Shown piece after piece: positions 1,005 through 8,396 of a stretch of 8,396 nt of DNA (positions are counted from its first letter, which is position 1; each line of letters opens with the position of its first letter). The translations under genes were made by a program, and so were the position numbers. Under the pieces are notes generated by a model. The model made no database searches and was not told where the DNA came from. It worked only from the letters and a program-made list of their open reading frames with translations. The DNA comes from Bacillota bacterium (lineage in GTDB: Bacteria; Bacillota_E; RBS10-35; JAJYVN01): NCBI GenBank assembly GCA_021846605.1, contig JAJZWQ010000141.1, positions 1 to 8,396 on the forward strand. The letters are read 5' to 3'.

Positions 1005-1898
1005 TCACCCTGAAGTAACGACACCGTTCACGTGCAGCGGCGGGCTACCGGGTTTCAGGGTCAGCGCGGGCGTCGCCACCGCCGCGAGGTCGATCGACGC
1101 CACATCGGACTGCTGGGCGCCCAGGGACTGGAGGATGCCCAGCAGGATCGCGGTCTTGTGGCGCGCGTCCAGGCCGTCGCCGTAGTTGACGGGGATGCCG
1201 CCGCTGGTCAGCACCGTCACCTGACCGGTCCCGTTCAGGCTGATCGTGCCAGCCGTGCTGGCCACGGCCCCCCCCAGGGACTGCGCCACATGCACCCCCA
1301 GTTGGACCGCCGCCGAGCGCAGCGTATCTCCCGGGGCCACCGTTCCCAACTGATCCCCGACGACCGCGGCGATCGGGATGCCCAGCCCCGGTACGGTCAC
1401 GGGCCCCTTGCCACCGGGATCCGGCAGCGCCCGCAGCACCACGCCCGCGCGATCCAGTTCCCAGAGGGTGGTTCCCTGCAGCACGCCGACCACCGGCACG
1501 TGCTCGCGAATGGTGATCGAGAGCGTGCCGGTGCCCAGATAGCGGACGCGGGCGCTGGCGATCAGGGGATCGCGCACCAACCGTCGCGCCAACGTCCAGG
1601 GCCGCAGTTGCCAGGTGTAGACCCCGGCGGGGAGCTGCAGGTCGGCGCGCACCTCGGCCGCCGAGGCCTGCTCCAGCCCACTGATCACCAGGTGGCGCAA
1701 CTGGAACGGCCGCGAATGCAACACCACAGTGGCGAGCGCCACGGCCGCCGCCACCACCACGAGGCCCAGTAGGCGCCGCCGCGTTCGCCCGGGCGGCGCG
1801 GCGCGGTCCGCGGCCGCTGGGGCACGCCGCGACCAAGCCCGCTCCGCACGGCGTCGCGCCGCTCCCCGCCTTGCCGGGATGCCGCTGTCCACGATCAC
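1005..1898 (-). CDS. ftsQ: Cell division protein FtsQ/DivIB
   Basis: FtsQ/DivIB is a bitopic membrane protein that bridges the cytoplasmic divisome to the septal peptidoglycan synthases through FtsB/FtsL. The 297-residue protein has an Arg/Ala-rich cytoplasmic tail (1-42) and one transmembrane segment (about 43-60, LLGLVVVAAAVALATVVL). A POTRA domain follows (about 65-133), opening with FQLRHLVISGLEQASAAEV and closing on a TLSITIREHVPVV strand typical of the family. The C-terminal FtsQ domain contains the usual LWELDRAGVVL stretch (145-155). The start is GTG at 1898, with GAGG six bases upstream. A nearby ATG at 1912 is out of frame. Length is normal. ftsA follows on the same strand, while the gene on the other side is divergent. 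In this window, therefore, ftsQ is the first gene of its cluster and no murB/murC/murG precedes it directly. Confidence 0.92.
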   Translation of the reverse strand: MIVDSGIPARRGAARRRAERAWSRRAPAAADRAAPPGRTRRRLLGLVVVAAAVALATVVLHSRPFQLRHLVISGLEQASAAEVRADLQLPAGVYTWQLRPWTLARRLVRDPLIASARVRYLGTGTLSITIREHVPVVGVLQGTTLWELDRAGVVLRALPDPGGKGPVTVPGLGIPIAAVVGDQLGTVAPGDTLRSAAVQLGVHVAQSLGGAVASTAGTISLNGTGQVTVLTSGGIPVNYGDGLDARHKTAILLGILQSLGAQQSDVASIDLAAVATPALTLKPGSPPLHVNGVVTSG

Positions 1899-5688: not shown

Positions 5689-6963
5689 ATGTGGAGCACA
5701 GGCAGCAACGCAATCACCGTGTTGGACCTCGGGACGGCGCCAGACGCCGAGTGGTGTCTCTGCCTCCTCCGGGAGGCGGAGATCGGCTGCTGGTTCGACC
5801 GGCGGGCAAGGACAGGGATCTCCCTGTTGCTGCTGGATCCGGACCGCGTCATCCGGTCTCCGGATCATCTCTGGCGCACCCTCGATGCTGCAGCAGGCAC
5901 GGCCAGCCCGGGCCCGTTCGGGTTCGCTGGCGGATGGGCGGGCGTTGTTCCCTATGAGGCCGCGCTGACGGCATTGGACCTCCCTACGTCCGCCCCCGGC
6001 AGCGCGATGGCGCATTACCCTGGCGCCCTGGCCATCGATCATGCGCAGGGGAGGGCCTTTGCGGTCGGCCGAGGAGCGGCGGGACATGCGGCCGCGCACG
6101 CGTGGGCCGCCCGCCTCCTGACGCATCGTTCCTGCACGCCACCCCAGTTGTCCCTCCCGCCTCCGCGAGTGGTGGACCCGGGCCCCGGCCCGACCACGTT
6201 TGCCCAGCAGGTCTGCGCTGTGCAGGAGTGGATCGCCGCGGGGCAGGTCTATGTGGCGAATCTGACCTACCGCATGCGCTTGGACGGATTGGCCAATCCG
6301 GCGGCGGCCTACGGGCGGTTATCCGCCAGCCACCCCGCCCCATACGCGGCGTTCCTGCGGGACGGGGACCACTGGATCCTGTCGTCGTCCCCCGAGTTGC
6401 TCGTTCGACGGGCCGGTGTGCATGCGTGGACGCGGCCGATCAAGGGAACGCAGCGGGCGGGGGAAGCGACCGCGCTGTCCGCCGATGCCAAGGAGCGGGC
6501 GGAACTGACCATGGTCGTGGATATGGAGCGCAATGATCTCGGCCGGGTTGCCCGCGTCGGCACGGTGCACGTCAGCGCACTCTTCGCCGTTGAACCACAC
6601 CCCGGTTTGGAGCACCTGGTGGCGACAGTGGAGGGCGACGTCCCCGGCGCCGCCGGGGGGTTGTTGCGCGCCATGCTTCCCGGCGGATCGGTGACCGGCG
6701 CGCCGAAGCGGCGCGCGGTAGAGCTTCTGGGCACGTTGGAGGCCGATCCGCGGGGCGTGTACACCGGTACCGTCGGCTACTGCGACGACGGCGGTGACAT
6801 GGAATGGAACGTGGCGATCCGCACGCTGGAGGTCCTCCGCGGGCGAGGCCGCTACGGCACCGGCGGTGGCATCACCATCGATTCGCATCCCCTGCGCGAG
6901 TACACGGAAACACGCCTCAAGGCAGCGGGGCCACTGCGGGCCCTGGGTGTGCCGTGGGAGTGA
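5689..6963 (+). CDS. pabB: Aminodeoxychorismate synthase component I
   Basis: PabB converts chorismate and ammonia to 4-amino-4-deoxychorismate, the first step to 4-aminobenzoate and folate. It normally receives ammonia from the glutamine amidotransferase PabA, for which no gene is visible here. The 424 residues (from ATG) show an N-terminal FGFAGGWAGVVPYEAA block (about 77-92) and GQVYVANLTYR (185-195), where most PabB proteins have YQVNL. The chorismate-binding domain carries SSPELLVRR (232-240), PIKGTQR (250-256) with the active-site lysine, MVVDMERNDLGR (275-286), PGGSVTGAPKRR (331-342) and GGGITIDSHP (392-401) with the following Y-E-T. The PIKGT lysine favours PabB over TrpE. No Shine-Dalgarno precedes ATG 5689 or the in-frame GTG 5683, which agrees with leaderless translation. 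The stop overlaps the pabC start. Confidence 0.93.
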   Translation: MWSTGSNAITVLDLGTAPDAEWCLCLLREAEIGCWFDRRARTGISLLLLDPDRVIRSPDHLWRTLDAAAGTASPGPFGFAGGWAGVVPYEAALTALDLPTSAPGSAMAHYPGALAIDHAQGRAFAVGRGAAGHAAAHAWAARLLTHRSCTPPQLSLPPPRVVDPGPGPTTFAQQVCAVQEWIAAGQVYVANLTYRMRLDGLANPAAAYGRLSASHPAPYAAFLRDGDHWILSSSPELLVRRAGVHAWTRPIKGTQRAGEATALSADAKERAELTMVVDMERNDLGRVARVGTVHVSALFAVEPHPGLEHLVATVEGDVPGAAGGLLRAMLPGGSVTGAPKRRAVELLGTLEADPRGVYTGTVGYCDDGGDMEWNVAIRTLEVLRGRGRYGTGGGITIDSHPLREYTETRLKAAGPLRALGVPWE

Positions 6964-7655
6964 GCCTTGGCCTGATGGAAACCGCCCGCGTGGACGCCGG
7001 GCACGTCCCGCTCTGGCCCTTCCACCAACTGCGGTTGGCGGCCTCGGCGCGAGACCTGGGACTGCCCCTGCCCGCCACGCTCCCTACCGCCGAGGAGGTC
7101 GCGGCAAGCGCTGTCGCCATCGCCGGCATCGCGGCCGTCCGGCTCACCGCGACGGCCACCGAGATCCGGCTGGAGGCCCGGGCCGTGCCCCCCTCCGGAG
7201 AGGGGTGGCGCGCATGCAGCATCCCGCAGCTGCGGGACCCAAACCCCCGATGGGCACACAAGACCACCCTGCGTGCCGATCACGCATCCGCCGGCGCATT
7301 CGCCCAGGCCCACGGGTGCCAGGAGGCAATCTGGTCCGCCGCCCAGGGCCGACTGACCGAGGGGACGATCACCAACCTCTTCGTCGCCATCGGCGGCCAT
7401 CTCTACACACCGCGTGCCACCGGGTCCAATCTCCTTCCCGGGATCGCCCGCGGGCGCCTCCTCGCGGCCGGTGCCGTCGCCGGGCACCCGGTGGAAGAAG
7501 CGAATTTGACGATCGCGGACCTCGTCACCGCAGATGAGGCATTCCTCACCAACGCCGTGCGCGGCGCCATCCCGCTCGTGTCGTTGGACGGTAAGCGACT
7601 TCGGCGCGGCGGGCTCTGGCTGGCAGCCATGGCGAGTATCTTCTCGGGGACGTGA
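6960..7655 (+). CDS. pabC: Aminodeoxychorismate lyase, class IV aminotransferase fold
   Basis: PabC is a PLP enzyme that splits 4-amino-4-deoxychorismate into 4-aminobenzoate and pyruvate, completing the step begun by PabB. The 231 residues show HKTTLRADHA (100-109), whose Lys101 is the expected Schiff-base lysine. They also have the GRLTEGTITNLFV block (130-142) with the glutamate that contacts the cofactor ring nitrogen, TGSNLLPGIARG (154-165) and DEAFLTNAVRGAIPLVSLDG (192-211). The N-terminus begins at GLMETARVDAGHVPLW, so about 25 residues present in stand-alone PabC (including the first strand and the GDGxFET lead-in) are absent. This shape is usual for the lyase half of fused PabBC proteins. 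GTG 6960 overlaps the pabB TGA as GTGA, pointing to translational coupling. ATG 6975 is an alternative, with GGGAG too far upstream. The frame is open back to 6804 but overlaps pabB. Confidence 0.88.
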   Translation: MSLGLMETARVDAGHVPLWPFHQLRLAASARDLGLPLPATLPTAEEVAASAVAIAGIAAVRLTATATEIRLEARAVPPSGEGWRACSIPQLRDPNPRWAHKTTLRADHASAGAFAQAHGCQEAIWSAAQGRLTEGTITNLFVAIGGHLYTPRATGSNLLPGIARGRLLAAGAVAGHPVEEANLTIADLVTADEAFLTNAVRGAIPLVSLDGKRLRRGGLWLAAMASIFSGT

Positions 7656-7724
7656 GGCGTGCACCTCCGCCGCCGCGCGGCCTTCCGGAGAGGTCCTACG
7701 GGTCCCCCTCAAGGAGGCAGGGGA

Positions 7725-7976
7725 TCAGCACCCCCGCCCCCCGAACAGCCCTCGCCCGTTCGCAGCCCGCTCCGGCAGCACCTCCGCCAACACATCCCGG
7801 ACCACAACATCCACCGCCGGCGCCGTCTTGCGGTCCACAGGCGGCAGGGCGTGGGGCTCGGCCAGATACGCGAAGACTCGCACCGCCCCCCGCTCCCGCC
7901 GGGACCGCTCGCACACGTCGTCAATCAGCCCAGCCGCCTCCGCCCGCGTCCACCGGTGCGCCTCGCAAACGAGCAT
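7725..7976 (-). CDS. Small hypothetical protein beside the group II intron
   Basis: This 83-residue frame has high third-position GC and a balanced, soluble-protein-like composition, so it is probably coding. I do not recognise it. An amphipathic helix with WTRAEAAGLIDDVCERSRRE (9-28) is followed by AVRVFAYLAEPHALPPVDRK (31-50) and APAVDVVVRDVLAEVLPER (52-70). The end is glycine-rich. It has no membrane segment or signal peptide. ATG 7976 is the only start in frame, because the frame stays open upstream to a TGA near 8062 without another ATG, GTG or TTG. The upstream GGAA is a poor ribosome binding site. It converges with pabC, 69 bases away. It may be the 3' part of a gene broken by the intron to its right, or a genuine small gene. 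Confidence 0.5.
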   Translation of the reverse strand: MLVCEAHRWTRAEAAGLIDDVCERSRRERGAVRVFAYLAEPHALPPVDRKTAPAVDVVVRDVLAEVLPERAANGRGLFGGRGC

Positions 7977-8122
7977 TTCCGGCGGCCCCCGAGGCGGGAC
8001 CTCTCCAACACCGTCTGGGACTGGCCAAACCTTGGCAGCACCCCCTTGGGGCTCACGCCGGTGTCAACGTCGCTGCGGTGAGGGGCACGTACGTGTACGG
8101 AGATATCGTCGTGTTGCAGGCT

Positions 8123-8256
8123 GGTAGGTAGGAGGTGGCCTCGTGCCGCGGCCTCATCGCTTGAGTCCCTGTCCGACCGATATCCGGTCGCTCCGTTTTG
8201 GTCCGGTGCCCTCTCTGGGTCGCGGTGCACTTGTGCCACCTCCCCCTTCAGAACCC
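8123..8256 (-). repeat. Second, diverged tandem copy of the intron domain VI region with its own 3'-end motif
   Basis: This unit repeats the layout of 8259-8380. On the minus strand the shared blocks, in order, are GGGTTCTGA-GGGGGAGG, GGCACAAGTGC, GAGGGCACCGG, GCACGAGGCC and CCTCCTACCTACC. The middle differs in sequence but again holds hairpins, for example CGACCG-loop-CGGTCG (8174-8190). The outer helix is a perfect 9-bp pairing of 8131-8139 with 8235-8243. Compared with the other copy, one pair of this helix is T-A here and G-C there, a compensating change that supports a conserved RNA fold. No second domain V is present: only its last bases (CGGGTTC) are repeated. The 3'-end motifs of the two copies are 136 bases apart. 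Confidence 0.7.
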
Positions 8257-8258
8257 GG

Positions 8259-8396
8259 GGTAGGTAGGAGGGGGCCTCGTGCTTTAGCCTTTGTGGAGCC
8301 TCACCGTTTGCCGGTCCTTTCGGGCCGGTGCCCTCACCAAGCCGGCATGGCACTTGTGCCGCCCTCCCCCCTCAGAACCGGACGTGCAGATTTACC
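8259..8396 (-). mobile_element. 3' end of a group II intron (right half of domain V plus domain VI), cut by the window edge
   Basis: Read on the minus strand from 8396, the sequence shows GCACGTCCGGTTC (8387-8375), the 3' strand of the catalytic domain V hairpin of bacterial group II introns. The common TGAGGGGGGAGGG linker and domain VI entry follow. About 110 bases later it closes with CCCTCCTACCTAC (to about 8260), which has the CTA of a branch-point region and the terminal AY of a group II 3' splice site. The outer domain VI helix pairs 8362-8367 with 8267-8272. An inner hairpin with a GAAA loop lies at 8311-8328, and a small GGCA-CAAG-TGCC hairpin at 8349-8360. This domain VI is much longer than the usual 40-50 bases. 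The 5' strand of domain V, the intron body and any reverse transcriptase lie beyond 8396, so the family class cannot be assigned. The minus-strand orientation rests on domain V and the GNRA loop. Confidence 0.65.

Follow-up and report, generated by a model that had tools for sequence, protein, structure and literature searches.

Two putative group II intron 3' ends lie directly joined on the minus strand at the edge of the stretch of DNA analysed here (the window, 8,396 nucleotides), and the explanation that we consider best, and somewhat probable, is that one intron, A, is nested in domain V of another, B, forming a twintron. As judged from sequence, copies A and B are the tails of two different self-splicing mobile introns that belong to different subtypes. 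The arrangement is most likely of a known but uncommon nesting kind and not a doubled domain built for alternative splicing.

An earlier note on this DNA had read the region as a single intron with a tandemly duplicated domain VI and two potential 3' splice sites. Its observation of two diverged units, at 8396-8259 and 8258-8123 on the minus strand, stands in outline, but its account of how domain V is shared between them, of a small hairpin and of a duplication does not.

Structure of the joined intron ends

Copy A (8259..8396, minus strand) is the 3' end of a group II intron and comprises the 3' part of domain V, a linker and a long domain VI, as recognized from an alignment to the Rfam model Intron_gpII (RF00029) and from its likeness to a related intron, L015. 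The covariance search for domains V and VI that the earlier note had proposed does align RF00029 to 8396-8259, but the score of 18.9 bits (E 0.2) is below the cut-off of 40 bits, the 5' side being cut by the window end; when the entire window was scanned against Rfam, no match was reported at E up to 1. The complete 659-nt L015 intron has a 3' end to which copy A is 87% identical over 139 positions, and by this homology copy A has domains V and VI at its 3' end and an unpaired A in domain VI. The loop and 3' strand of its domain V (GGTAAATCTGCACGTCCGGTTC) lie at 8375..8396 (minus strand), as placed by alignment with the complete domain V of L014, L017 and L022, and the 5' strand is outside the window. 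A TGA linker separates domain V from a type 1 domain VI of ~113 nt (8259..8371, minus strand; fold, alignment and trees), in whose helix predicted folds leave an A unpaired at 8265 (minus strand), the candidate branch point. The terminal sequence is CTACCTACC, the 3' splice site follows 8259, and the intron runs on past the window edge.

Copy B (8123..8258, minus strand) is taken as the 3' end of a second group II intron from its 82.6% identity to L075 over 138 positions and from the trees described below. It starts CCGGGTTCTGAA and closes with the same sequence as copy A. Although it had been described as a domain VI alone, it also has the last strand of a domain V (CCGGGTTCTGA); guided by the domain V folds of L022 and L075, we place the 3' strand of the lower domain V stem (CCGGGTTC) at 8251..8258 (minus strand), and copy B lacks everything 5' of this strand. 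Its domain VI is of type 2 and ~124 nt long (8123..8246, minus strand; fold and trees), with a candidate branch point, again an A left unpaired in the helix of predicted folds, at 8129 (minus strand). The sequence 3' of copy B, on the 3' exon side, begins at 8100..8122 (minus strand), as read from the sequence, and is unlike either of the 3' flanks found in the related genome G007. Between the copies there is zero gap: the junction is 8259/8258 and lies beside the two-base bulge of domain V, which in the domain V folds of L022 and L075 is on the 3' strand, one base before CCGGG.

Aligned over 135 positions, the two structured units show 69.6% identity (E 2.5e-7 in a small comparison set), and a repeat search of the window returns them as repeat families D2-D4. 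Several details noted earlier are borne out. Each unit finishes CCTCCTACCTACC; predicted folds keep the outer helix in both and leave an A unpaired six positions upstream of the final base; and a T-A pair of this helix in one unit (8136/8238) is indeed G-C in the other (8272/8362). The GCAC-AA-GTGC hairpin reported for both units, in contrast, is absent from the predicted folds, in which GTGC pairs with GCAC near the 3' end. Compared with shuffled sequences, the fold of copy B is better (z -2.86 for 8123-8258; z -3.99 for the shorter piece 8123-8245, whose predicted fold is without the last three helix pairs) and that of copy A is no better (z 0.19 for 8259-8396; z -1.55 for 8259-8377).

The intron family in related genomes

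A pattern common to both units was matched in 14 stretches of genome contigs, eight of them in the Bacillota MAGs TL1-5.bin93, UBA5389 and DX1.bin42, where the motif is the end of an intron (in L019, of a fragment). Two more of the 14, L021 and L023, were read and found to be unrelated, and L024-L027 were outside the reading; L005 was also read and judged unrelated. An earlier viral scan with the motif common to A and B gave no match. The search of relatives scored at most eight candidates per genome in 101 genomes, and further copies are possible.

Among the relatives are complete ORF-less introns (L022, 696 nt; L015, 659 nt) and a 1953-nt intron carrying reverse transcriptase sequence (L034); many further copies are partial. 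The domain I model RF02005 matches L022, L106 and L015, and RF00029 scores 42.9 bits in L022, above its cut-off, and 39.9 and 34.9 bits in L106 and L015, below it. The intron-encoded protein of L106 (genome G051; 428 aa) matches solved group II intron reverse transcriptases, with a best E of 2.3e-41. Since relatives match these models, and since L034 and L106 carry a reverse transcriptase, the assignment of copies A and B as group II intron 3' ends is supported by homology. In at least 10 family copies, EBS1 is complementary to the last 5' exon bases, as read by eye. Several of the introns use as their target a repeated sequence and insert between AATCTCG and CAGTGTCAGGCG; unoccupied copies of it lie near 656 (+) in L022 and near 6904 (+) in L018, and comparison of empty with occupied copies places the last intron base at the end of CTACCTACC.

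PabB encoded in the window is 60-68% identical to PabB of genomes G001, G005 and G007 (at E 1e-60, matches were obtained in 5 of 101 genomes), which makes the host of the window a relative of these three. A search for an empty target of the window copy (query 7640-8122) matched one of 101 genomes, G007, at four places, which covered at most query bases 84-344 and never reached B. Positions 7723-7983 of the window are ~70-73% like four G007 places and look like a repeated or decayed gene fragment beside introns.

Some further features of the family were seen in passing. The inner 75 nt of the copy A domain VI (8279-8353, minus strand) resemble domain VI of Planctomycetes/Proteobacteria plasmid introns (L001, L006, L007, L009) and also a stretch outside recognized domain VI in G005, G012 and G015 (L073 152-228 (+), L077, L090, L091). 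The best such likeness, to L073, reaches up to 94% over 71 positions, and in L073 this stretch is followed by what by eye looks like reverse transcriptase sequence. Perhaps, at a guess, the inner 75 nt are an RNA module that changed domain. In G008, GTAGGTAGGAGG and similar upstream sequence precede both copies of domain VI (L074 ~1500-1620 (-), L155 ~1490-1635 (+)); GTAGGTAGGAGG is the reverse complement of the intron end CCTCCTACCTAC, and the L074 and L155 copies look like small elements with inverted ends. A 37-nt domain VI arm is found twice in one domain VI of L018 (1831-1867 and 1903-1939, minus strand; 95% identical), and at L048 164-286 (plus strand) an insertion of ~120 nt splits a domain VI, with ~10 nt of the query matched on both sides. 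L015, from UBA5389, has an Rfam SECIS_4 match of 61.6 bits at 5767-5804 (minus strand).

Recurrence of the junction in a second genome

The same junction is present at two loci of G007. On contig C95 an intron end, A', runs directly into CCGGGTTCTGAGG and a different domain VI, and on contig C179 the same A' runs directly into CCGGGTTCTGGGG and another domain VI. The two A' sequences are identical in 117 of 117 bases, which is all of A' that the contigs contain. The two G007 B ends, B' and B'', have 84 of 117 aligned bases equal, with different 3' flanks beyond, and share 84 of 120 and 101 of 133 aligned bases with copy B of the window. Both begin at CCGGGTTCTG, beside the two-base bulge of domain V, and the three B ends (window, C95 and C179) consequently share one starting position in this domain, two of them behind one inner end. 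An inner 3' end that continues directly into the rest of an outer intron, as a twintron would have, is found at 8259/8258, on C95 and on C179.

Contigs C95 and C179 (16949 and 38403 long) both break off 117 bases past the junction, where A' reaches the contig edge, which is expected if A' is repeated; five G001 contigs likewise begin or end 118-127 bases into this intron end. A strict pattern for the 3' junction had a match in 1 of 399 related genomes and in 0 viral contigs, and it missed the second G007 locus, where a different base follows TTCTG. Because the same junction is seen at two G007 loci as well as in the window, an assembly artefact arising from a chance chimera is unlikely.

Relationship of the two ends

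In a tree of 19 intron ends, a branch supported at 99/99 splits seven rows including A from 12 rows including B; the nearest rows to A are L015, L070 and L074, and those to B are L075, L095 and A'. Forcing A and B into one clade makes this tree 34 log units worse and is rejected (p-AU 0.0037). Including the second G007 end raises the number of rows to 20; support for the branch that sets off the seven rows of A is then 95/94, and the A+B clade is again rejected (p-AU 0.0065). Most other forks are weak in these short alignments (12 of 16 and 11 of 17 are open). Ends of each kind also occur singly, like A in L015 and L070 and like B in L075.

These results bear on the proposal that domain VI was duplicated within a single intron, leaving it two usable 3' splice sites, which, because the A+B clade is rejected, we regard as very improbable. 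Both units do keep the helix, the unpaired A and the end sequence, which speaks for such an intron. For the G007 pairs, moreover, AU tests do not reject one clade (A'+B', p 0.277 with 19 rows and 0.236 with 20; A'+B'', p 0.299; B'+B'', p 0.206), so that a duplication in G007 is compatible with the sequences. Yet one G007 A' precedes two different B ends, which argues against it there, and in the window A and B are not sisters, their kinds of end are found apart elsewhere and B is without a full domain V.

Origin of the junction

We propose that a type 1 intron, A, would have retrohomed into domain V of a type 2 intron, B, beside the two-base bulge; the insertion site, as read in relatives, would fall between CCGCACG and CCGGGTTC. 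Past base 8396 one would then meet the 5' part of A and, further upstream, that of B. Provided that B is intact there, A would have to splice out first, the domain V of B would be rebuilt and B could then splice at 8123. We infer the 5' half of B, a matching EBS1 in A and any splicing. Nesting of this kind would explain why B is missing its 5' part and starts at a fixed base, why the 3' end of A is exact and why identical A' precede different outer introns, since identical inner and diverged outer introns are the trace that repeated site-specific insertion into other introns would leave. A and A' are of different subtypes, however, and two lineages would need the same target, which counts against nesting.

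The 5' side of such an insertion was sought in several ways. A first pattern for the 5' junction (the 5' half of domain V followed by GTGCG) gave 63 matches in 13 genomes, all with 2-3 mismatches, compared with 18 for the control, and three of its four G007 matches (C191, C70 and C184, with C47 left out) were inspected and showed no intron. A second pattern gave 12 matches in 8 of 21 genomes, none of them in G007, against 13 for a backward control. The 22 loci obtained from both patterns had no match to three intron 5' ends at E 1e-3. In 101 genomes nothing matched exactly an EBS1 reading YGTGYGG within the expected hairpin, a search that would overlook introns whose hairpin frame differs. Among the 28 distinct intron 5' ends that were read, one was recognized inside another intron (L103) and none at the domain V site.

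A complete twintron is present in the family. On contig C88 of DX1.bin42 (G003), a 1953-nt family intron separates domain V from domain VI in an intron that belongs to another class. Upstream of the inner intron are the outer reverse transcriptase, which contains a run of N, and the outer domain V; downstream is the outer domain VI. In L033, also from DX1.bin42, the outer sequence is uninterrupted. The inner intron contains CACACCA, complementary to TGGTGTG, the last seven bases of its 5' exon. On at least one occasion, therefore, a member of the family has inserted into another intron in the region of domain V.

The earlier note offered a second reading, a truncated remnant beside a later intron, which comes close to a rival explanation that we retain as unlikely. 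Here copy B would be a 5'-truncated remnant, left by reverse transcription that halted in domain V or by a later deletion, and A would have inserted later at the same 5' exon, abutting it. Partial copies are common in the family: L014, L017, L018 and L046 consist only of ORF-region pieces and domains V/VI, L071 and L081 begin inside domain VI, and L019, which is also without its 3' end, begins at GTCCGGTTCTGA, within a base or two of the start of B. In G001, type 1 (L018) and type 2 (L020, L048, L051) copies share one repeated 3' flank (AG(T/C)GTCAGGCG, or GGTGTCAGGCG in L051), and two subtypes can therefore share a target. What this explanation requires, however, is that copy B of the window and two different G007 B ends were all truncated at one base, with A' before two of them, and the AATCTCG exon end is, by eye, absent at the 5' boundary of L018.

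The fixed start of B could also come from one chimeric insertion, in which a reverse transcriptase, having copied B RNA up to the bulge in domain V, switched to an A RNA at its 3' end and copied through it. End-to-end template switching is a property of group II intron reverse transcriptases, and template switching by MarathonRT has reportedly been treated in a published study. Such an event would account for the exact 3' end of A and for one A' with two B ends as well, but it needs a preferred stop or break at the bulge, and we think it quite improbable.

Returning to nesting in domain V, a broader claim seems to us evenly poised: that in this Bacillota lineage the catalytic domain V of introns has been a repeated homing site, beside its two-base bulge, for introns of the same kind, the active inner intron silencing the outer ribozyme until the inner one is spliced out. 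This would involve at least two inner subtypes (A and A') and three loci, and DX1.bin42 would add a second site, immediately past domain V. Should this hold, other group II introns would be using the most conserved portion of the group II ribozyme as a homing site, and one would have a bacterial system for studying whether a ribozyme core is silenced by an inserted intron and later restored, and in what ways introns restrain or exploit one another. Were B no more than a remnant, the junction would be ordinary intron debris.

Relation to known systems

The parallel drawn earlier with Clostridium tetani C.te.I1 does not carry over beyond the presence of more than one domain VI in a row. C.te.I1 has four nearly identical D5/6 motifs in 5.1 kb, with an ORF after each (PMC3919590), whereas the window has two unlike, abutting units, the second without a full domain V. 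Repeated complete and near-same D5/6 units are not found in it, since B is without the 5' strand and loop of domain V and A and B do not form one clade; nor, as judged between A and B only, does an ORF follow each unit, because the two abut. Extra RNA past domain VI is also found in those bacterial class B introns that carry a 3' extension (domain VII), but their splice site is shifted by ~50-70 nt and there is no second intron end (PMC4424553).

Nested introns offer closer comparisons. Those of Methanosarcina acetivorans are described, in the same paper, as the result of repeated site-specific homing into other group II introns, like the process proposed here, although up to five introns are nested there (PMC4424553). 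The Euglena psbF twintron, as described in PMC8393795, has a group II intron within domain V of another; nesting in domain V is thus known, and we do not claim a first bacterial report. The psbF case is in a chloroplast gene, whereas the present one is bacterial, with the same junction at three places (PMC8393795). In Thermosynechococcus elongatus, an intron has a fixed homing site within its relatives (TeI3 in TeI4), inner copies are identical while outer ones are diverged, and the family has ORF-less and ORF-bearing members, all as here; identical inner and diverged outer introns were taken there as recent independent insertions (PMC2882425). The site differs, lying between the first two ATGs of the intron ORF in T. 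elongatus and in domain V here (PMC2882425).
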